Virus record (IMG/VR): IMGVR_UViG_3300007539_000157
Coordinates: 1 to 27,304 of that record
DNA: 27,304 bases
Reading direction: 5' to 3' (one strand)
Origin: a virus
The translations under genes and the position numbers were made by a program. Shown piece by piece: positions 5,166-24,703 of the stretch; position 1 is the first letter of the stretch, and every line of letters begins with the position of its first letter. The notes below the pieces were generated by a model. It was not told where the DNA came from. It saw only the letters and a list, made by a program, of their open reading frames with translations, and searched no databases.

Positions 5166-5384
5166 ATGGTGGGTTATTTGGCAAGAGAAGAAGAAGACAC
5201 AATCGTAGAAGTCATTGAGTCTAAGCCAAAAGACGTTGCTCCTTACCGAGTCTTAAACGGACAGATAGTTCCAAACATTGCCGCCGAGTCAGTAGTTGTG
5301 ACGAAGTGGGCAAGTGGAAGGCAGGATGTTTTGGTTAAAGTTCCAAGATTGGAGTTGAATAAGAATGAAATTAAAAAAGCTTGA
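5166..5384 (+). CDS. Small hypothetical protein
   Basis: A 72-residue acidic/basic protein with no family I recognise. The first 20 residues are rich in acidic residues; the middle (PYRVLNGQIVPN) looks beta-like. ATG at 5166 has AAGG at 5157-5160. It lies immediately after the portal terminator and overlaps the next gene by 20 bases, so the two are probably translated together. Position between portal and scaffold suggests a small virion or assembly protein, but no motif supports a particular job. Confidence 0.65.
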   Translation: MVGYLAREEEDTIVEVIESKPKDVAPYRVLNGQIVPNIAAESVVVTKWASGRQDVLVKVPRLELNKNEIKKA

Positions 5385-5670
5385 TAAGACTTTTATTGAC
5401 GGCTATGCGACCTTTGCGGTTACTAAGCCTGAGTTGAGAGAACTTCGAGAGAGGGCAGCTTCTGAAGCCGAGTATCTTGAGGAAGTCCGTAAGGCGATAG
5501 AGCCATACGGATATCAAATAGACTCCCTCCTTGTTAACAAAAGCAACAACAAACCCACCCTCACCGTTCACCATCAACAACCCTATGAGACTTACAGCCT
5601 CGCCGAATCAGATGAGGAGCTAGAGTTTCTTAAATCCAATTTCTTCTATTACGCTAAGGAGAGTGAATAA
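5365..5670 (+). CDS. Small hypothetical protein, helical then beta-rich
   Basis: A 101-residue protein. Residues 20-48 form a charged helix (LRELRERAASEAEYLEEVRK), then a beta-like middle (YQIDSLLVNKSNNKPTLTVH) and an acidic aromatic C-terminus. No known family is recognised. The start lies inside the previous gene (20-base overlap) and the stop overlaps the next start as TAATG, so it is the middle member of a translationally coupled trio. The most likely role is a minor structural or assembly protein, inferred only from position. Confidence 0.65.
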   Translation: MKLKKLDKTFIDGYATFAVTKPELRELRERAASEAEYLEEVRKAIEPYGYQIDSLLVNKSNNKPTLTVHHQQPYETYSLAESDEELEFLKSNFFYYAKESE

Positions 5671-6089
5671 TGGCCTCGGGATTGTATAACATTTTTAAGA
5701 GCGAAGTAATGAAAGGAACCTTTGACCTTGTCAACGACACGGTTAGAGCCAAGCTCCTTGATAACTCCCATTCATTTGCAGCAAGCTCAGTAACTAACGA
5801 CCAATGGGCAGACATCTCAGCAAATGAAATTTCTGGTACTGGCTATACAGCTGATGGTGAAGCTCTCGCATCAAAAACAGTTACAGTTGATAACGTTGAT
5901 AACGAAGGAGTCTTCGATGCAGCTGATGAAGCTTGGACAAGTGCTACTTTTAGCGCTTACCACTGCGTCCTTGATGACACTACTGCTAATTTCATCCTTG
6001 CTTCTATTGACTTTGGTGGTGTGCAAACGGTCTCTAGCGGGACTTTTACTATCCAATGGGCGAGTGAAGGTATAATCAATATTACGTAG
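5670..6089 (+). CDS. Small phage virion-type protein
   Basis: A 139-residue protein with a pattern seen in many small phage structural proteins: an N-terminal VRAKLLDNSHSF segment, the signature ANEISGTGYTADGEAL (about residues 51-66), a D-x-W-x-x-A-T-F strand region (EAWTSATFSAYHCVLDD), an ASIDFGG segment near 110 and a C-terminal GTFTIQWASEGIINI. The composition is beta-rich with few cysteines. The function of this family is not firmly known; it is usually annotated as a phage structural or hypothetical protein. It starts at a TAATG overlap with the upstream gene. Confidence 0.75.
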   Translation: MASGLYNIFKSEVMKGTFDLVNDTVRAKLLDNSHSFAASSVTNDQWADISANEISGTGYTADGEALASKTVTVDNVDNEGVFDAADEAWTSATFSAYHCVLDDTTANFILASIDFGGVQTVSSGTFTIQWASEGIINIT

Positions 6090-6099
6090 CTTATGGGCA

Positions 6100-6624
6100 A
6101 TGGGAGATTATTTTATAAGCGACCATCTAGCAGCCCTTCAGGAGATGGTAGGCTCAGGGCATAGCGCTACCGCAGACTCAGAAAGCTTCCTACCGCAAAT
6201 CATTTATGCAGCCGAGCGTCGAAGCGAGTTTAGAGCTAGATGGTCTGAGGCGCTAAAGTACTCCCCTATCGCTATCTGCATTGTTGATTTTGATGGCTGG
6301 TTCTTAGAAGTAAATCCAGCGGCATGTGATCTGTTTCAGCGTCCAGAACAGGAACTCCAGCAGCTTAGATGGCAAGATATAACGCATCCTGATGACATCG
6401 ATGGGGATGATCAAAAAGTGGATAAAATAATCAGTGGAGATGTTGAAAGCTATCGCATGATAAAGCGCTACATTATGCCTGATGGAAGTTACAAACCTGC
6501 TTTTCTATCTGTCTCTGCTTGTAGGGCGCAAAGAACAGGAAAGCGATATTTTATTAGTCAGATAATCGATTTAGATTGGTTCGGTGAAATTGTCGACAGG
6601 GCAAGGACACGCTATGCCTCATGA
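6100..6624 (+). CDS. PAS-domain protein
   Basis: A 174-residue protein. Residues about 50-160 form one PAS sensor domain: AICIVDFDGWFLEVNPAACD (59-78), LRWQDITHPDDIDGD (89-103), then EYRMIKRY-like and PDGSYKPAFLSVSAC (127-141) and a final RYFISQIIDL strand. PAS domains sense small ligands, redox state or light and normally drive attached enzymes or regulators, but no kinase, GGDEF/EAL or DNA-binding domain follows here. Residues 1-48 are helical and could act as a dimerising or signalling helix. ATG at 6100 has no strong ribosome binding site, and the gene overlaps the next one by 11 bases. A PAS protein in a phage virion cassette is unusual. It may be a sensor, a scaffold for protein contacts, or acquired host DNA. 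The fold call is strong; the role is unknown. Confidence 0.8.
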   Translation: MGDYFISDHLAALQEMVGSGHSATADSESFLPQIIYAAERRSEFRARWSEALKYSPIAICIVDFDGWFLEVNPAACDLFQRPEQELQQLRWQDITHPDDIDGDDQKVDKIISGDVESYRMIKRYIMPDGSYKPAFLSVSACRAQRTGKRYFISQIIDLDWFGEIVDRARTRYAS

Positions 6625-6844
6625 TTACGAGTATTACATAACTAAAGAGCTAGAGAGACAAACAGCCGTGGACGAGAAACTGAACGAAGAAATAAGCGAG
6701 CTACAGATTAAGCTAGCAAAGATTGAAACTGTGGCAAGTCGAGTTGAAAAGATTGAGTCAAACACAAGTAAGATTGCATGGCTAGTTATAACAGCAGTGA
6801 TTTTAGCCGTTTTAAAACTGGTGATAGAGACTAAGGGCATATAG
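6614..6844 (+). CDS. XhlA-like coiled-coil membrane protein
   Basis: A 76-residue protein with a heptad-type coiled coil at about 8-50 (ELERQTAVDEKLNEEISELQ onward) and one transmembrane helix at about 53-71 (IAWLVITAVILAVLKLVI). The IEKIESN-x-x-K-x-A-W boundary resembles the XhlA family, small membrane proteins associated with holin activity in lysis cassettes. ATG at 6614 is preferred over the in-frame GTG at 6584 because AAGGA (6603-6607) is well spaced before it. It overlaps the PAS gene by 11 bases and its stop overlaps the next GTG start. It lies about 17.5 kb from the endolysin and holin-like genes, so it may not be a lysis protein here; it could partner the PAS protein at the membrane. 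Confidence 0.7.
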   Translation: MPHDYEYYITKELERQTAVDEKLNEEISELQIKLAKIETVASRVEKIESNTSKIAWLVITAVILAVLKLVIETKGI

Positions 6845-8541
6845 TGGTAGCACCAAATAGAAAAAGCGGGCAAACAAGCCAAGGCAATTTTAACGCCAGT
6901 GGCGGCACTATGTCAGCAGCCTCTAGTACTACTAGCGGCAACCTTGGTTTAGTCTTTGTCACTACTGACAATAGCACTACAATCTCTTTAAGTGGCTACA
7001 CCCAAGTAGCGATATTAAACAATAGTACGCACTGTACCGCAGCAGTTTTTAAAAGAGAGCTTACTGGTAGTGACGATGGTACGTTCACTATTTCCCCAAG
7101 TGTTAGGGGTAGCTGGATATTTGTAGAATACGAAGGCTCTCCAGATATTGCCAATGTTGAAGCAACTACGGGAACAGGGGCAGGAAGTAACGCAGACCCC
7201 CCTAGTCATACACCTAGTGGCGGTTCGGACGATTACTTATATGAAGCCTTTGCAGGTATTGACCGTTCAGCAGCGGCAAGTGCAGCGCCTAGTGGCTATA
7301 GTGGTTTCTTATCTGAAAACCCTGGCTCTGGTGCTTCTGCTACTACCAACATAGCTTATAAGTCTACTACCTCTAGCACATCTGAGAATCCTGGGACTTT
7401 CACAAGTAGTTCTGAGGATTATGTAGTAATGACGGTTTCCATCCCCCCTGCAAGCGCAGGGACAAGCGTTACTGTCAACCCCTCTACTTTATCGGCGACC
7501 TCTTCAGTACAAGCTCCTACGCTGGATTTAATATCAAACGCAACGGTAACACCCTCTGTTTTGTCAGCAACTACTTCGGTACAAGCTCCTACCGTATCCG
7601 CTGAAATCCACGAGACAGCTACCCCCTCTGTCTTATCAGCTACCAGCTCTGTAGAGACTCCTACCGTCTCTTTGGCTTCTAATGCTACCGTTACCCCCTC
7701 TGTCCTTACAGTAACTTCAGGAGTTCAAACTCCTACGGTAACAGCTATACAGAACGCTACGGCCACCCCAACCGTCCTTAACTCAGAGACTGTCCTTAAT
7801 GCCCCTACTGTATCAGCTGAAGTATCAGCTACGGTTACGCCTTCAACCCTATCAGCTACTAGCTCCGTAGAAGCTCCGACTGTTTCTACTGGGCTCAACG
7901 ATGAGGTAACTCCATCCGTATTAACTGCTACTGCCTCTGTAAACGAACCAAGCTTTGACATAGTCCAGAGCGCTACTGCTACCCCTTCCGTCCTTTCAGC
8001 TTCTGCCTCTGTTGTTCAACCTCTTGTTGGCTCTCAAGTACCAGTAGAGCAGGTAGGCGGTGGCCTTTCTGACCCTACTCCTGAATCTAGAGCTGAGTTT
8101 GAGCGAAGACTAGGCATCCTTTCTCAAGGATATAAAGAGGATGATTCAAGGATTAAGGAGACTCTTAAGGCTAAGCCAGCCCCTAAGAAACCAAAACCAA
8201 CCAAGGTTAAGTTCGAGAAAATCCGTTCTAAGGACGAAGTCTTAAGGACGGCTGAAGGACTCTCTGAGAAAATCAACGAGCTACTCCTCCTTTCTGAACC
8301 GGTTCCTCTGGTAATAGAGCAAGAAGAGCCTCTTGATATTAGCTTCTCTCGGCCAAATTGGGATTCTCAATACCGCTCTGTCCAGCTACCAGCCCCAGCT
8401 AAGGACTCAACCGTATCTGATACCGACCTAGTAAGAGCTATCCGTAAGTATAAGAAACTCAAAGCATCAGGACAGGCTCAACCTGTTGAACATATAGAAA
8501 TCAACGGAGAAACCTTCTCTTTTGTAGCCGAACAATTCTGA
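6844..8541 (+). CDS. Adhesin-like structural protein with eight 24-residue repeats
   Basis: A 565-residue protein in three parts. Residues 1-205 are Ser/Thr/Gly-rich and beta-like, with GSWIFVEYEG, AAPSGYSGFL and a final EDYVVMTVSIPPA strand, a layout common in phage adhesin or fibre-like proteins. Residues 208-399 are eight tandem 24-residue repeats of the form NATVTPSVLSATSSVQAPTV. Residues 400-565 are charged and helical, with a KAKPAPKKPKPTKVK linker. The GTG start at 6844 overlaps the upstream stop (TAGTG) with AAGGG just upstream. Its place before the scaffold gene, not among tail genes, is unusual for a fibre; a capsid-surface fibre or host-attachment protein is possible. Confidence 0.7.
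   Translation: MVAPNRKSGQTSQGNFNASGGTMSAASSTTSGNLGLVFVTTDNSTTISLSGYTQVAILNNSTHCTAAVFKRELTGSDDGTFTISPSVRGSWIFVEYEGSPDIANVEATTGTGAGSNADPPSHTPSGGSDDYLYEAFAGIDRSAAASAAPSGYSGFLSENPGSGASATTNIAYKSTTSSTSENPGTFTSSSEDYVVMTVSIPPASAGTSVTVNPSTLSATSSVQAPTLDLISNATVTPSVLSATTSVQAPTVSAEIHETATPSVLSATSSVETPTVSLASNATVTPSVLTVTSGVQTPTVTAIQNATATPTVLNSETVLNAPTVSAEVSATVTPSTLSATSSVEAPTVSTGLNDEVTPSVLTATASVNEPSFDIVQSATATPSVLSASASVVQPLVGSQVPVEQVGGGLSDPTPESRAEFERRLGILSQGYKEDDSRIKETLKAKPAPKKPKPTKVKFEKIRSKDEVLRTAEGLSEKINELLLLSEPVPLVIEQEEPLDISFSRPNWDSQYRSVQLPAPAKDSTVSDTDLVRAIRKYKKLKASGQAQPVEHIEINGETFSFVAEQF
7465..8040 (+). repeat. Eight 72-bp coding repeats
   Basis: Eight in-register units of 24 codons in the adhesin-like gene. 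Protein units share T-P-S-V/T-L-x-A-x-x-S-V-x-x-P-T/S; DNA copies differ at many synonymous sites, so the array is old rather than freshly expanded. Units 5, 7 and 8 are the most divergent. Confidence 0.9.
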
Positions 8542-10647: not shown

Positions 10648-11097
10648 ATGGCTACTTATTACTCAGATAAAATAGTCGCTTCTAGCAACAAGGAGCTAAC
10701 GCAAGTCCCTGCTCGTTCACACATCTACCCTACTTGGGTAGTTGGAACAGCGAGCGTGGATACCTCACTAGATGCTGCTGATATCGTTAAAGGTGTGAAG
10801 GTTCCAGCTGGAGCTTTAATCCTTGATATCATCCTTAAGTCTACTGACATTGATACTGACGGTACTCCAGCCGTTACTCTTCATGTTGGCGACTCAGATG
10901 ACGCCGATCGCTTCTTTGTTAGCTCAGATGTTGGGCAAGCAGGAGGAGTCGCTCGGTTGACTGCTGATGGAGCAGTGGCTGGTAACTTGTACGAGTACTC
11001 AGCGGAAACAGAGATTAACATCACTGTTGCCGTGGCCGCTGCTACAGCTGCCGCTGGTACAGTACAACTTGCGGTTCTCTACGTTGTAGGAAACTAA
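10648..11097 (+). CDS. Probable capsid decoration or head protein
   Basis: A 149-residue, beta-rich, Ala/Val/Asp-rich protein. Segments such as DIVKGVKVPAGALILDIILK (about 46-65) and AVTLHVGDSDDADRFF (about 75-90), and a C-terminal run of alternating hydrophobic residues ending AVLYVVGN, suggest a compact beta sandwich. Small proteins of this kind often follow N4-gp56 capsid genes and are annotated as head or decoration proteins. ATG at 10648 has AGGAG at 10636-10640. A terminator follows directly, making capsid and this protein the last genes of their transcript. The fold and role are inferred. Confidence 0.65.
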   Translation: MATYYSDKIVASSNKELTQVPARSHIYPTWVVGTASVDTSLDAADIVKGVKVPAGALILDIILKSTDIDTDGTPAVTLHVGDSDDADRFFVSSDVGQAGGVARLTADGAVAGNLYEYSAETEINITVAVAAATAAAGTVQLAVLYVVGN

Positions 11098-18869: not shown

Positions 18870-21800
18870 ATGAGTGATGATTTCAATCCTCAAGAAGTAG
18901 ACCGCATGATGGATCTAGAGAGCCGTATTGGTAGCGGTTACGACCCTTCTCCTCAAGAAATAGACTTCATGATGGGCTTTGAAGATAGGCTTTCTAGTCC
19001 AGCTCCTGAACCTAGTACGGACGTCAACATGGAATTTGGCAGAGCCGACCACGGGGATAGCTTTCTAGCTAATCGCGTTACGGAGCCTATATCTGAAGTT
19101 GTTAACGACTATATCAACGAGCCCCTCTCCAACATCGCTATGAATACCTGGGGCGGTCAAATGGCAGCTGGGGCAGCCTCTCAGATAGCTAAGCCTCTTG
19201 GGGGAGTAATGGAATGGGCGGGAGATACCGCAGCTGGTTTTGGCTGGGACGATAACCCTCTCCAACGTTACGGCGAGAACATAAGAGATAACTCTGATTT
19301 AGTAGCTCAAGTATCAAGAGATAGATTCGGAGCTGATGATAGCTTTGCAAAAGGATTAGCTTATGATGTGGGTTCTTCTACTATGGCTGCTCTACCTATC
19401 CTTGCCGCTGGTGCTATATCCGCTCCCGCTGCTTTGGCTTCTCCTCTTACCCTTGGTTACTTTGGGAGTACTAGCGCTGGTGATGAGTATGCAGAGTTAA
19501 GAGATGCTGGCTACGGGTACGAGGCAGCTACTGGCTTTGGTGGTCTCTACGGAGTGGGAACAGTTGCTCTTGAAAGACTCCCTGTAGGGAAGTTCCTAGA
19601 CCCTAGCATCTCCTCAGGAATCAAGAGAGTAGCAAAGACCGGAGTATCAGAAGGAATAGAAGAAGGCTCTCAAGCTGCAATGGATATAGCTTATGGAGTT
19701 GCCCTTAAGGACAGGGATATGCCTACTCTAGGTGAAGCCGCTAGAGAAATAGGCTACTCAGGACTCGTTGGTACTACCTCAGGTGGAATAATGGGAGGAG
19801 TTGGCCATGGGGTTAACTCAGTTCATAAGGCTAATATCCAAAGACAGTTTGCCCAACAAAGAGAAGTAGACGAGGAAACCTTTAACCAGATTACAAACAA
19901 AGTCCTTAACGACCCTAATGCTCAAAAGATAGTCAAGCAACCTACTGGCACTCAGACAGCCCCTCCTTCAGTAGACGACCAAATCAAAAGAGAGGGAGAT
20001 TATTCAAGACCTACTAAACCTATCGAGCCTGGAGACGTAGCTACAACAGTTGGTCTAGAACCTAACCCAGGAGAGGTTGAGTATAATCCTTACGATAGAA
20101 ATCCTAACCAAACCCCTGAAGAGGCGCTTGGGGATGTACCTCCTATTCCTGAAGATGGTGAGTTCTCTCAGATGGGAGACACTACCCCAAGTGATGCTCC
20201 TCCACCTCCCCCTGCTTTCGAAGCTCCACTCCCCAAATCGAGGGATTTTATATTCTCTAGAAAGACTGGAGCCATGTATTCAGAGGATTTAAACCCTAAG
20301 CTAAGAGACCATCTAGATGGGCTTATAGCTGGTTTCTATTTAAGTCCAGCGTCGGGAACTCAGTATTCTCCTAATACTTTAACTATTGGAACCTTTGACA
20401 AGCTCGCAGGGTACGAGACCTATTCATTGATAGATGGAGACCGCCCTCTCCATCCAGACTCTCGCTTTGCGATAGGCCGAGAGGATTATGAAAGTTATAC
20501 TTCAGCAAAAAGGATCATCAGTAAAATAGGCGATGAGTACAAATATGATAAGAGACCTACGGTTCAGGGAGTTCACCTTACAAGCTCAGCTAGCCTAACC
20601 TCTTCGGGTGTCCCGATGTCTGTAGTTATAGGTCTTAAGACAGGAGAATGGAGCCCCAAGAATCTTGCGGTAGCTAGTCATGAACTAGCTCATGCAGTAG
20701 ATGAATACCTCCTCCAAAAAAGTCCTGAGATTAGAGAAGCAATGCGTAAGGAATGGGAAGCGGCAAGAGATAATGCCTTAAAGAAGAAAACCATTGGCGA
20801 GGCCGATAGGCATCTAGGGGCTTTCTATATGGCAGAAGAGAAAAATAGAGAAGGGACAGGGAGAAAACCCCTTAAGATGTACAAAGGAACCAGATACTAT
20901 AATTACAGGTTCGGAGAGGAGTCTGGCTTTGACGAATGGGTAGCTAATCAAATAGCTGAATGGGCAATGAACCCTAATAATATTGCCGAGACGAAAGCCC
21001 AGAGGTTGATGAGAGATATAGGTCGATTCTTCCGCAAGATATGGGAGTCTTTTCAAAAGACCTTTCCTCAACAAGCCCCAACTCTTAGAGAGTGGTTAGA
21101 TGAGCATTTTGATAAAGCTGCCTACCGAGGTGTGGTTAGTAAGTCAAAACCTAAAGCAACTAAACCTATCGACCCTCTTGATGACCCTCTTGATGACCCT
21201 CTTGATGACCCTATAGACCCTATAGGGGCTCTCACTGCCCGCCTCCATTCAGAAGCAGGGGTAGACATGATGTTCCAACATTGGCCAGCTCTCCTAGCCA
21301 AGAACGCCTACCAAGGATACAAAGCTACTAGCAAGATGGTAACTGACGCCTTAAGGCCAAAGGACAAGTCTTTATCTACTGAGGCTCCTGATTACAGAGA
21401 CGACGCGGAGAGGCTCCTTAGTGGAGAGATATTCGGCACTGAGAATAAAGTCCTTGGAAAAGCAAGACAAAGGATAACGTTCGGCAAGACCTTAGCTGAG
21501 AAGTCTCCGCTCTATAGAAGAGTGTATGAAGCGATGCTGAAGCTCTTTGATATCCAGCAAGTAAACGTAGCAGAAGCAGCTGAGTCACTAGCTCCTTATT
21601 CTACCCACTCAACCGAAGGTAAGGCCAGAGTCAACAAAGCCTTAATGACTCAAAGGATAGCTAGCGAACACGGGCTTCATTACTCAGAGTCTAAGCAAAG
21701 CTTGATGAAAAACCTTGGCCTCCTTGAAGAAGACGTCGCTGCCTATCAAGCAGTAAGAAAGACAATGATTCACTTCACTGAGAAGATAAGAGAAGCTCTT

Positions 21801-24263
21801 AAAGCAGATGTCCCTAGGTTTATACAGAAGAGCGTTAACGGAGACTTTGAAGTAGAGGCTGATGCTCTAACCCTGGAGAAGTACCACCAACGAGTAGATG
21901 CTCTAGCTGATGAGCTAGCTGCTGGTTACTACGTTCCGGCTACAAGGTTCGGGAAGCTAATAGTTCAAGTAGATGACTACGTTGACAAGTCGGCTCCTTA
22001 TGGCGAACAGGACAAGAAAGGTTGGTTCTCTCTCCATGAGACAGAAGCAGAGCGGCAAGCTACTATTAAGATGTTGAGCGAACAGGGATACACCAAGAAG
22101 CAAATAGTCTCTGATACCCTTAAGGACACAAATGTAGAAGGCATTGATATGTTGCCTACCGATATAATTGAGAGAGCTAGAGACCTAGGTATAGTTCCTG
22201 AGGTTGGCGAAGAAGACCTGATGGTTACAGTAGATGTCAAGAAGCTAGATGAGCCTACTGGATTTAGAGGTAAGCTAACTAAAGCTAAGTTAGTCCCTGG
22301 TTTCACTCAGAACCTTGAGAGAGCTATCAACGACTATGCTCTAGGAGCTAGTTACTGGCACGCTAATAAGATGCAAGCCAAAGAGTTTCGTATGGCGCTT
22401 GATGATATCAAGTTCGGAGGGAACGTTAAAATAGGCTCTATCTTTACTGAAGGTAAGGACGCCAAGGGCAGGAAGAGAGCTATTCAAAAGCTCTCAGTAG
22501 ATAACAAGAAGATTATCAATAAGAACCTCTACGACAGAGCCAAGGAGGACATAGAGTATGTAAGAAAAGGAACCGAAGAGTTTCAACAGCTCCGTCAGTT
22601 TATGGCTATGTGGTTCTTATCTCGTCCTGTTACTGCTCTTGTTAACGGAACCCAGACTTTTACGATGACGCTTCCTGAGGCCATCCATCACCTAGGAGCT
22701 AGAAAAGGAGCTAAAGCAGCTGGAGTCGGATTCTTAAGGCTTACTAATCTTCAGAAAAAAAAGCTAAGCAAGGAGCAACTAAGCCAAGCGCAGCAAGAAC
22801 TATCAGATGGTTTAGACTTAGCAGTTAAAGAAGGTCTTGTATCCGCTGAAGCTCTTAAGGCAATGACAGGACAGGCAGCTGGTAAAAGGAAACTAGGTAA
22901 AATCTCTAGCAAGGTTCCTATCCTTGGTGGTAAGGACTTAGCTGATGCCCCTCTTCTACTCTTCTCAGAAACAGAAAAGCTCAACCGGATGGTGGCTTTT
23001 GCTATTGGCTTTGAGGTAGCTAATAAGAAGAAGTTAAAAGGAGCCGAGCGTCAGAAGTTTGCTGAAGACTTCGTAAGAGAGACTCAGTTTGATTACTCAA
23101 AAGCTAACCGCCCTCCCATTAGTAGAGGCTATGCTGCTCCTTTATTTGCTTTTAGATTGTTCCCTTTCTTTCAGCTCCGTTGGCTCCGTAATCGACTAAG
23201 CGATAAGGACTACAAAGCGGTAGGAACTCACCTAGCAATGCAGCTACTCCTCGGTGGTATTACCGCTATGCCTCTTATTAAAGACCCGTTAAAGCTTCTA
23301 GAGATGAGTGGGTTAAATCCTAAGGCGCTAATAAGAGAGTTCCTTGGTAGCTTCTCCGATAGTGAAGGCTTAGAGGATATGCTTATTTACGGACTCGCTG
23401 GAGTAGGAACCTTAATGGATGAGGTAGAAAGCCTTAATATAATCCCAGGAGCCGGTATCAAACCAGAAGACATTCCTTTCTGGGACACTATTAAGGATAC
23501 CTTTAAAGCTGCTAATATATCCTCTTCTTTGGCTGCTCCTGAGTTAGCTCCTGATATCGAGTACGGTATTGGGGCTGCTCTGATAAAGACTATCCTAGGT
23601 TCCCTTTCTGCTTTCGGTACAAGCCAAGCAAGATATCAGTATTACCTTGATAGCGGCCTTCCTCCTGAGATAGCTAGGGAAGTTCTCCATCCTCCTATTC
23701 TTCATAAAGGCTTAGAGACTAACCGATGGGCTAGAGAAGGAGAGTTAAGGATGGCCTCTGGAACTCTTAAGAAAGAGCTATCTCCCGTTGAGCAATTGTT
23801 TGGCTATCTTGGTTTTAACCACCTAGACAGAGCTAAGTTCTACGAGCAACGCCACGGCAAGCGTCTTACTGGAGACCGAAGTAGAGATAATGATAATATG
23901 AATAAGAAGCTTACTAATTCTATCTTTGACTACATGAGGTACTCTAAGATGGGAGACAAGAAACGAGCAGACGCTGCTTTCTCTAGAGCCGAGAAAGTCC
24001 TTAGTAAAGTAAGAGAAGACAAGCAGCTACTAAGTGAAGTACTAAGGGGAGAGAACCCTCTTCAGCTATCCCCAGAAGCAGCTCGCGCTCTTACTAACTA
24101 CTCAGAGCCTCACCAAGCCTCTATAAAGCGCTCTCTCAAGCACCTGATTGGCCAATACCAAGACCCTTATTATGTAGAAGACCTACCTAAGAAAGCCCGT
24201 CCTGAAGCTCACAGGGTCGTTACGGACGTTACTGGCAAACCTACCCCTTACGTACCAAGATAG
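18870..24263 (+). CDS. Giant ejection protein, polyvalent type, with zincin-like motif
   Basis: A 1797-residue protein. Residues 1-45 hold two copies of a QEVDRMMDLESRI/QEIDFMMGFEDRL unit. Residues about 90-330 are Gly/Ala-rich with hydrophobic segments (MAALPILAAGAISAPAALAS) and a GVSEGIEEGSQ motif common in phage polyvalent proteins. A Pro-rich linker (345-460) precedes a zincin-like region: HELAH at 604-608 and a candidate third ligand E689 in GFDEWVANQ. A DPLD repeat (768-783) leads to long helices. Residues about 1245-1480 (FLSRPVTALVNGTQTF; FDYSKANRPP near 1407) resemble the conserved helical regions (LPD38-type) of large polyvalent phage proteins. It is expected to be packaged and injected, with the protease or peptidoglycan-linked activity unproven. 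T7 gp16 is an analogue in size and position, not by visible homology. Confidence 0.78.
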   Translation: MSDDFNPQEVDRMMDLESRIGSGYDPSPQEIDFMMGFEDRLSSPAPEPSTDVNMEFGRADHGDSFLANRVTEPISEVVNDYINEPLSNIAMNTWGGQMAAGAASQIAKPLGGVMEWAGDTAAGFGWDDNPLQRYGENIRDNSDLVAQVSRDRFGADDSFAKGLAYDVGSSTMAALPILAAGAISAPAALASPLTLGYFGSTSAGDEYAELRDAGYGYEAATGFGGLYGVGTVALERLPVGKFLDPSISSGIKRVAKTGVSEGIEEGSQAAMDIAYGVALKDRDMPTLGEAAREIGYSGLVGTTSGGIMGGVGHGVNSVHKANIQRQFAQQREVDEETFNQITNKVLNDPNAQKIVKQPTGTQTAPPSVDDQIKREGDYSRPTKPIEPGDVATTVGLEPNPGEVEYNPYDRNPNQTPEEALGDVPPIPEDGEFSQMGDTTPSDAPPPPPAFEAPLPKSRDFIFSRKTGAMYSEDLNPKLRDHLDGLIAGFYLSPASGTQYSPNTLTIGTFDKLAGYETYSLIDGDRPLHPDSRFAIGREDYESYTSAKRIISKIGDEYKYDKRPTVQGVHLTSSASLTSSGVPMSVVIGLKTGEWSPKNLAVASHELAHAVDEYLLQKSPEIREAMRKEWEAARDNALKKKTIGEADRHLGAFYMAEEKNREGTGRKPLKMYKGTRYYNYRFGEESGFDEWVANQIAEWAMNPNNIAETKAQRLMRDIGRFFRKIWESFQKTFPQQAPTLREWLDEHFDKAAYRGVVSKSKPKATKPIDPLDDPLDDPLDDPIDPIGALTARLHSEAGVDMMFQHWPALLAKNAYQGYKATSKMVTDALRPKDKSLSTEAPDYRDDAERLLSGEIFGTENKVLGKARQRITFGKTLAEKSPLYRRVYEAMLKLFDIQQVNVAEAAESLAPYSTHSTEGKARVNKALMTQRIASEHGLHYSESKQSLMKNLGLLEEDVAAYQAVRKTMIHFTEKIREALKADVPRFIQKSVNGDFEVEADALTLEKYHQRVDALADELAAGYYVPATRFGKLIVQVDDYVDKSAPYGEQDKKGWFSLHETEAERQATIKMLSEQGYTKKQIVSDTLKDTNVEGIDMLPTDIIERARDLGIVPEVGEEDLMVTVDVKKLDEPTGFRGKLTKAKLVPGFTQNLERAINDYALGASYWHANKMQAKEFRMALDDIKFGGNVKIGSIFTEGKDAKGRKRAIQKLSVDNKKIINKNLYDRAKEDIEYVRKGTEEFQQLRQFMAMWFLSRPVTALVNGTQTFTMTLPEAIHHLGARKGAKAAGVGFLRLTNLQKKKLSKEQLSQAQQELSDGLDLAVKEGLVSAEALKAMTGQAAGKRKLGKISSKVPILGGKDLADAPLLLFSETEKLNRMVAFAIGFEVANKKKLKGAERQKFAEDFVRETQFDYSKANRPPISRGYAAPLFAFRLFPFFQLRWLRNRLSDKDYKAVGTHLAMQLLLGGITAMPLIKDPLKLLEMSGLNPKALIREFLGSFSDSEGLEDMLIYGLAGVGTLMDEVESLNIIPGAGIKPEDIPFWDTIKDTFKAANISSSLAAPELAPDIEYGIGAALIKTILGSLSAFGTSQARYQYYLDSGLPPEIAREVLHPPILHKGLETNRWAREGELRMASGTLKKELSPVEQLFGYLGFNHLDRAKFYEQRHGKRLTGDRSRDNDNMNKKLTNSIFDYMRYSKMGDKKRADAAFSRAEKVLSKVREDKQLLSEVLRGENPLQLSPEAARALTNYSEPHQASIKRSLKHLIGQYQDPYYVEDLPKKARPEAHRVVTDVTGKPTPYVPR
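21171..21218 (+). repeat. 12-bp coding repeats (DPLD linker)
   Basis: GACCCTCTTGAT occurs three times in a row from 21171, then a degenerate unit GACCCTATAGAC. It encodes DPLDDPLDDPLDDPID and joins the zincin-like part to the helical part of the giant protein. Near-identical DNA copies suggest recent slippage expansion, so length may vary among relatives. Confidence 0.85.
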
Positions 24264-24283: not shown

Positions 24284-24703
24284 ATGATGAACTGGCCAGG
24301 GAGGTACTTCTCACCTAAGGAGGTATTATCCCCCAAAGCCTTAAAGGTCTACAAGGAGATGGGTATTAACCTTTTCAACTTAGAAGCCTTAAGACGCTTT
24401 GACGATATTAGGGAAGCTCTAGGAAGCCCGATGTTAGTTAACTTCGGCGACTTGACCCTTAGAGGCTACCGCACTCCTGAAGAAAACAAAGCTATAGGAG
24501 GCGCTCCTTTCTCATATCATATGGCTGGTATGGCGATTGATGTTACTTGCGACAAGGTCTCTACGAGAGAGCTATACAAGTTCCTAGTCGACAATCATCA
24601 GCAACTAAAGATAGGCGCTCTTGGTTTTTACCCATATGCGAACTTCGTCCATATAGACGTAAGGCCAAGTAGAGTACTTGTTACGTGGGAACAAAGGAGA
24701 TAG
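24284..24703 (+). CDS. Endolysin, peptidase M15-type
   Basis: A 139-residue peptidase of the M15 (M15_3) group, predicted to cut cross-links in host peptidoglycan at the end of infection. The signature is intact: RGYRTPEENKAIGGAPFSYH (60-79) supplies the first zinc ligand H79, MAIDV supplies D86, and GFYPYANFVHIDVR (114-127) supplies H123 with D125 beside it. There is no signal peptide or separate cell-wall binding domain. ATG at 24284 (or the next at 24287) has no good ribosome binding site, so the start is uncertain; translation may depend on the giant gene 20 bases upstream. A holin-like gene follows. Confidence 0.88.
   Translation: MMNWPGRYFSPKEVLSPKALKVYKEMGINLFNLEALRRFDDIREALGSPMLVNFGDLTLRGYRTPEENKAIGGAPFSYHMAGMAIDVTCDKVSTRELYKFLVDNHQQLKIGALGFYPYANFVHIDVRPSRVLVTWEQRR

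Follow-up and report, generated by a model that had tools for sequence, protein, structure and literature searches.

A single-domain PAS protein and an overlapping coiled-coil membrane protein in a phage genome: a possible membrane-tethered sensor

Why would a phage carry, among its virion genes, a lone PAS domain without an output domain, and why does its gene overlap that of a small membrane protein? The question is raised by a single IMG/VR virus record, IMGVR_UViG_3300007539_000157, whose whole stretch of 27,304 bases was analysed and is called the window here. Its features are collected in Table 1, where CC-TM stands for the protein made of a coiled coil and one membrane helix.

Table 1. 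Features of the window that bear on the PAS/CC-TM pair
Feature	Position	Strand	Basis
Six-gene insert between portal and scaffold: 72 aa, 101 aa, phrog_644, PAS, CC-TM, 565 aa	5166..8541	+	
Small phrog_644 protein (unknown-function family)	5670..6089	+	PHROG
Single-PAS protein, 174 aa, without output domain or membrane helix	6100..6624	+	ORF, Pfam/NCBIfam, AlphaFold2
AAGGA, possible ribosome-binding site, 6 bases before ATG 6614	6603..6607	+	sequence; inference
CC-TM: coiled coil and C-terminal single membrane helix, 76 aa	6614..6844	+	ORF, helix/coil rules; weak XhlA/'hemolysin' similarity
565-aa repeat-rich protein, 'adhesin-like' in the first-pass annotation	6844..8541	+	
M15 peptidase endolysin, recognised lysis enzyme	24284..24703	+	Pfam, PHROG
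Two-helix holin-like ORF, 92 aa	24685..24963	+	helix count

Is the first protein really a PAS protein and nothing else? Five Pfam families (PAS_3, PAS_9, PAS_8, PAS and PAS_4) match it above their gathering scores, with E-values from 2.1e-7 to 1.8e-5, and TIGR00229 (PAS S-box) gives 60.3 bits against a cut-off of 22.9. The AlphaFold2 model, built with 14 sequences, has a mean pLDDT of 79.3, and the blocks across residues 61-140 average 94-98. In this model a helix at residues 30-53, the start of which is of low confidence, precedes the PAS core, and another at 158-173 follows it. When the model was compared with the PDB by Foldseek, the top match was a PAS domain (E 2.2e-8). Each of the 50 listed matches is a PAS or LOV domain or a protein containing one, and at the top stand PAS domains, FixL and short LOV proteins. 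No second domain, including any output or DNA-binding domain, was matched in Pfam or NCBIfam, and no membrane helix was found inside the protein. The LOV cysteine motif and the FixL-like haem histidine, as the motifs are generally known, are absent by eye. The first-pass annotation had described a lone PAS domain without output domain and had named the predicted structure beforehand as one point on which this reading could fail; the profiles agree with the description, and the PAS fold is present in the prediction.

The CC-TM gene runs from an ATG at 6614 to a stop ending at 6844 and shares 11 bases (6614-6624) with the PAS gene, just as had been annotated. Since its AAGGA lies inside the PAS gene, the arrangement suggests that the two genes are translationally coupled. 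The membrane helix takes residues 54-72 of 76 (KD 2.44) and comes after a strong charged heptad coil, which scores 0.8 with a home-made coil rule; the architecture noticed at first, a coiled coil with one membrane helix, therefore stands. The name 'XhlA-like' stands only in part: there is a coil and then one C-terminal helix, but the match to XhlA (PF10779) reaches 16.4 bits where 34.7 are needed, and the gene is outside the lysis cassette. PHROG 1193, a 'hemolysin' family, matches with E 2.8e-4. XhlA presumably has this same architecture of a coil and one helix. XhlA of the Bacillus prophage PBSX is a small protein of the membrane whose gene accompanies those of holin and endolysin, and it is the predicted partner of the holin XhlB (PMC5589764). 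The window pair, in contrast, lies 17.4 kb from the M15 endolysin and the holin-like ORF, which agrees with the earlier remark that it is far from the lysis genes. The holin-like ORF has no match in Pfam, PHROG or NCBIfam. Elsewhere in the window, the 1797-aa product of 18870-24263 contains a PLxRFG/tail-700 domain, for which the NCBIfam match (1.1e-32) is above its cut-off.

Is the pair a regular part of the virion cassette in related phages? To this end, 16 loci were collected with the window capsid protein, which is 26-33% identical to proteins of phage records including BcepIL02 and PEp14 (best 30 of 64), both of them podoviruses. Two of the loci, L006 and L007, belong to the window's own virus, leaving 14 relatives, and 13 of these have both portal and scaffold and form the informative set. 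The gap between portal and scaffold is 3533 bases in the window and 8-13 bases in 11 relatives, 92 and 477 in the other two. The six-gene cassette is missing from all 13. As the gap is short in every informative relative, the genes at 5166-8541 were inserted between portal and scaffold, or else were lost in all 13 relatives. PF08447 was found in 2 of the 17 records searched, those of L003 and L007, and in none of the 14 capsid relatives, most of which are fragments. Thus the claim that the two genes are kept together in relatives is true of the near-identical contig L007, where the pair is identical (L006 begins downstream of it), but not of the informative capsid relatives. As for the other genes of the insert, the GTG start of the 565-aa gene overlaps the CC-TM stop by one base. 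No family bears out the label 'adhesin-like' for its protein, which has no Pfam or PHROG match at E 0.1 and one below-cut-off NCBIfam match of 30 residues. The only phrog_644-like match among capsid relatives is L016 7519-7944 (blastp E 5.5e-4), which sits amid collagen-like and repeat-rich genes, the region being labelled by eye. Homology of the window phrog_644 protein to the Gp80-type proteins beside the PAS genes of L003 and L046 had been expected but did not appear (hhalign E 0.18 with two-sequence profiles). In L021, a distant capsid relative, a CC-TM gene without PAS (10807-11055) is followed by an ORF that looks by eye like a lytic transglycosylase.

Do other phages have similar proteins? 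Viral contigs were scanned with single proteins, a motif, a profile and a second motif, and repeats, multi-domain proteins and genes cut by contig ends were removed. The scans gave 16 full-length standalone PAS proteins, the window's and 15 others. Those set aside as multi-domain, by eye, were kinase-like (L025, L036 and L039), PAS-EAL (L030) or of GGDEF types (L032, L055 and L138); the PAS genes of L143 and L145 are cut by contig ends. A family profile built with 12 of the 15 proteins (L033, L140 and L141 were not used) has one match in each of the 15 relative records. Among the proteins set aside, those of L025, L036 and L039, on three viral contigs, are one and the same 479-aa membrane protein, which by eye resembles a PAS histidine kinase. 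L030 454-1596 encodes a PAS and then an apparent EAL domain in 380 aa, near methyltransferase-like genes, these names also being given by eye.

Most of the standalone proteins combine PAS with a hydrophobic stretch. A clear membrane helix (KD of at least 1.6 over 19 residues) follows PAS in 8 of the 16 (L003, L026, L029, L031, L046, L051, L053 and L140), and a weaker stretch (1.23-1.68 over 17) in five (L024, L028, L034, L056 and L141). The L054 protein has an N-terminal membrane helix, and those of the window and L033 have none. Thus PAS and a membrane helix are joined in one protein in 9/16 by the strict rule and in 14/16 when weak helices are counted. The model of the L046 protein has a PAS core, a low-confidence linker at about 121-134 and a helix at 141-164, so the linker is probably flexible. 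In three cases a CC-TM gene adjoins the PAS gene, on its 3' side and overlapping in the window and L054, and on its 5' side in L003. CC-TM genes fill 3 of the 32 slots next to PAS genes and account for 3 of the 354 remaining genes (Fisher p 0.009), in a post hoc comparison that uses the home-made coil rule. The 354 are the 386 called genes less the 32 slots, and the L054 partner, missed by the gene caller, was added by hand. The window CC-TM is not clearly homologous to these partners, with E 1.4 for L054 and, in a single-pair comparison of coiled coils, E 0.005 for L003. Over the 15 relative records PF10779 has a match in that of L051 alone, with none above cut-off. Whether relatives keep the two genes together, which had been named as the other point on which the reading could fail, thus has a mixed answer. 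The earlier idea of a compact sensor-membrane unit gains support from phages that fuse PAS to a membrane helix or place a CC-TM gene beside it. The feature common to these phages is an output-less PAS tied to the membrane, either through fusion or, apparently, through a neighbouring protein. Another recurring neighbour is seen in L024 3721-4510 and L028 7200-7968, where the gene directly after that for a PAS with membrane helix is a small ORF that has two CxxC-type motifs, a zinc-ribbon look and only weak Pfam matches. A metallophosphoesterase-like gene lies a few genes from PAS in L053, L054, L029 and L024, assigned by PHROG in L029 and by eye in the others.

What stands next to these genes? 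In L003, PAS is followed with a 4-base overlap by an amidase endolysin (phrog_822, 5.5e-66), then a two-helix ORF (holin phrog_1356, E 0.028) and Rz (phrog_1026, 2.7e-4) with an overlapping lipoprotein ORF. In L053 it is followed, again with a 4-base overlap, by an M15 endolysin (phrog_894, 9.4e-17), and next comes a one-helix ORF without PHROG match. The small membrane-helix ORFs after these two endolysins look like holins, the holin match being weak at best. In L046 the order is PAS, DUF5675 (6.4e-26), a one-helix ORF, and an Rz-like gene (phrog_2466, E 0.02) with a nested lipoprotein ORF. In L054 it is PAS, CC-TM, a one-helix ORF and then an ORF in which a Cys comes behind the first hydrophobic stretch and a helix lies at the C-terminus, which we read as the layout of a one-piece spanin. 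The one-helix and lipoprotein-like ORFs of L054 have no lysis match in PHROG, and the lipoprotein-like one was not picked out by the scripted lipobox rule. A scan of whole records for four peptidoglycan-hydrolase families found a hydrolase in 5 of the 15 relative records. It adjoins PAS in two of the five (L003 and L053) and is distant in three, by about 35 kb in L140, about 180 kb in L051 and about 16 kb in L033, where it is inside a 601-aa frame. The other 10 records, several of them short fragments, have no match to the four families. In L056 a serine-hydrolase-like gene follows PAS (7.5e-5); taking 7678-8283 of this locus as lysozyme-like was a guess that no profile confirmed. The first-pass suggestion that the pair might time lysis thus gains partial support from the lysis-cassette positions in L003, L046, L053 and L054, but none from the window itself or from L140, L051 and L033.

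Which role would account for both the membrane attachment and these positions? Our preferred reading, to which we give a probability of only about 0.35, is that PAS and CC-TM make up one membrane-tethered device that acts through a partner and most plausibly tunes lysis. The lysis-cassette positions make control of lysis the most plausible output; that part is drawn from about 4 of the 15 relatives and not from the window. The PAS protein, which has no enzymatic part itself, would do the sensing in the cytoplasm, and CC-TM would provide its membrane anchor and, with the coiled coil, a surface for contact. Elsewhere among phages, a PAS that carries its own membrane helix would play this role. 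The packing of the PAS-coil assembly at the inner membrane would then alter when a ligand binds or the state of the cell shifts. Contact between proteins would carry the signal further, the holin/endolysin stage being its most plausible target, and lysis would be delayed or advanced. Binding of PAS to CC-TM, a ligand, the direction of the effect and lysis as the target are what we infer; in the simplest mechanism, what PAS senses would be relayed at the inner membrane through contact between proteins. As unrelated phages have comparable membrane-linked sensors, some of them in lysis gene clusters, the pair may be a small sensing device for use at the membrane of the host. The timing of lysis is commonly seen as the work of a holin clock that takes few inputs. 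A phage-encoded, membrane-tethered sensor, which in some phages is beside endolysin and holin-like genes, would add an input to it that can be tested, and the pair would be a case of signalling without transcription or phosphorylation.

Could the phage PAS instead imitate a host protein? The strongest rival, though in itself an unlikely one, is that it copies the PAS of a host membrane diguanylate cyclase of the DgcE type, pairs with it at the membrane, and blocks or redirects cyclic-di-GMP signalling. The best NCBIfam profile for the window PAS is the membrane diguanylate cyclase PRK09776 (profile 301-415 of 1111, E 1.5e-30), and the same profile is best for 11 of the 11 phage PAS tested, out of 16. 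All 11 are far below its whole-protein cut-off of 1135 bits, which is unavoidable for a single domain, and the shared best match is partly built in because the set was collected with motifs of the same PAS subtype. Unlike PRK09776, the window protein has no GGDEF/EAL output and no membrane domain; the lack of an output domain is what one expects of a dominant-negative partner. A genome scan for cellular relatives gave at least 593 stretches, 588 of them confirmed. The best 80 of these are all in ORFs of at least 292 aa, as a decoy of large host proteins would have it, with no standalone cellular PAS among them in this one scan. However, imitation of a cyclase does not predict the fusion to membrane helices, the CC-TM gene or the lysis-cassette positions.

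Somewhat further down we place the view that the two proteins reside in the inner membrane at a late stage of infection, where they exclude superinfecting phages or guard the membrane state, as a moron would. An accessory insert that capsid relatives lack and that encodes a small membrane protein would suit this, and the coil proteins of L003 and L054 weakly match long PADLOC proteins (E 0.001-0.01), probably through their coils; the window PAS and CC-TM have no PADLOC match. But exclusion needs no PAS, the site among virion genes suggests expression that is late for exclusion, and several relatives' PAS genes adjoin lysis genes.

It is less probable again that the two genes are neighbours by chance, an accessory gene for PAS having come in along with one for an unrelated XhlA-like protein, and that each product acts separately. 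Short gene overlaps are common in phages, the partners across phages are not clearly orthologous, and CC-TM without PAS exists, as in L021. Against this, PAS and helix are fused in most of the 16 proteins, and the window's helix comes from the next gene. That the pair is packaged or ejected with the virion, as the portal-scaffold location and the virion genes on both sides would suggest, along with a PAS after a terminase-like gene in L140 and after tail-like genes in L028 (labels by eye), is improbable, for capsid relatives have no such genes at that site and neither the membrane helix nor the lysis-cassette relatives fit.

Do the phage PAS proteins have one origin? In a tree with 20 PAS domains from phages and 80 from cells, 11 phage proteins fall into one group (SH-aLRT 96). 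A smaller, more careful tree, without L141, L145, L030, L025 and 47 of the 80 cellular rows, again gives an 11-member phage group with support 96/97, the bootstrap being not settled. The group holds 10 of the 16 standalone proteins and the truncated L143. Five of the set (the window, L029, L033, L054 and L056) are outside it in both trees, and a single origin of all phage PAS was considered but not adopted. The PAS domains of the window and L054 are placed among those of cells, and the window's has a long branch. When the window was constrained to the phage group, the AU test did not reject the placement (p 0.853), and this tree had a better score than the one from the unconstrained quick search. 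A bolder form of the preferred reading is that tailed phages repeatedly recruited host PAS domains and tied them to the membrane, by fusion or partner, as a ligand-gated lysis switch. Such a sensory antiholin would read the host state and set the lysis time without a change of transcription; we regard this as a doubtful extension.

Are such proteins already known? A tblastn search of 50,697 phage records with the PAS proteins of the window, L003, L028, L034 and L046 and with the window CC-TM found none, and queries with the M15 endolysin and the capsid protein found 545 and 64 records. The negative is a weak one, as the lack of a match even at E 10 suggests limited sensitivity. Megablast of window positions 1-25000 against the phage records also gave nothing, and the viral-contig scans with single proteins and a two-sequence alignment returned the window's own virus and L003 and no others. 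Among the papers listed in searches of the open-licence PMC literature, none is on a membrane-tethered phage PAS or on a PAS in a lysis cassette. The nearest case there is VqmA_Phage of vibriophage VP882, a PAS sensor with a DNA-binding domain that acts via qtip transcription and leads to lysis (PMC8284805). Both are phage-encoded PAS proteins, and the VqmA_Phage one leads to host lysis; the window protein differs in having no output or DNA-binding domain in its 174 aa and in being paired with a membrane protein gene.

Short phage PAS proteins, without function, are already in databases. Four BFVD entries of 169-205 aa (A0A345MNJ9, A0A6J5KZZ3, A0A6J5NY05 and A0A6J5QVN9) have a predicted fold similar to the window PAS. 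The last three are named 'PAS domain' and come from uncultured Caudovirales phages, and the BFVD entries give no function. One more candidate comes from an isolated phage, Cellulophaga phage phi19:1. Its gp108 (L147 8203-8925, 240 aa) was equated by length alone with BFVD R9ZZL0 and is probably that PAS-like predicted fold; gp108 has no Pfam PAS match, and the phi19:1 genome has no match to the phage PAS profile. The gene lies after the last annotated structural gene in a cluster of small ORFs that look by eye mostly like membrane proteins, with gp107 weakly holin-like (E 0.0065) and the lysozyme gp113 1.5 kb downstream of gp108. It is a possible test case in a phage that can be cultured.
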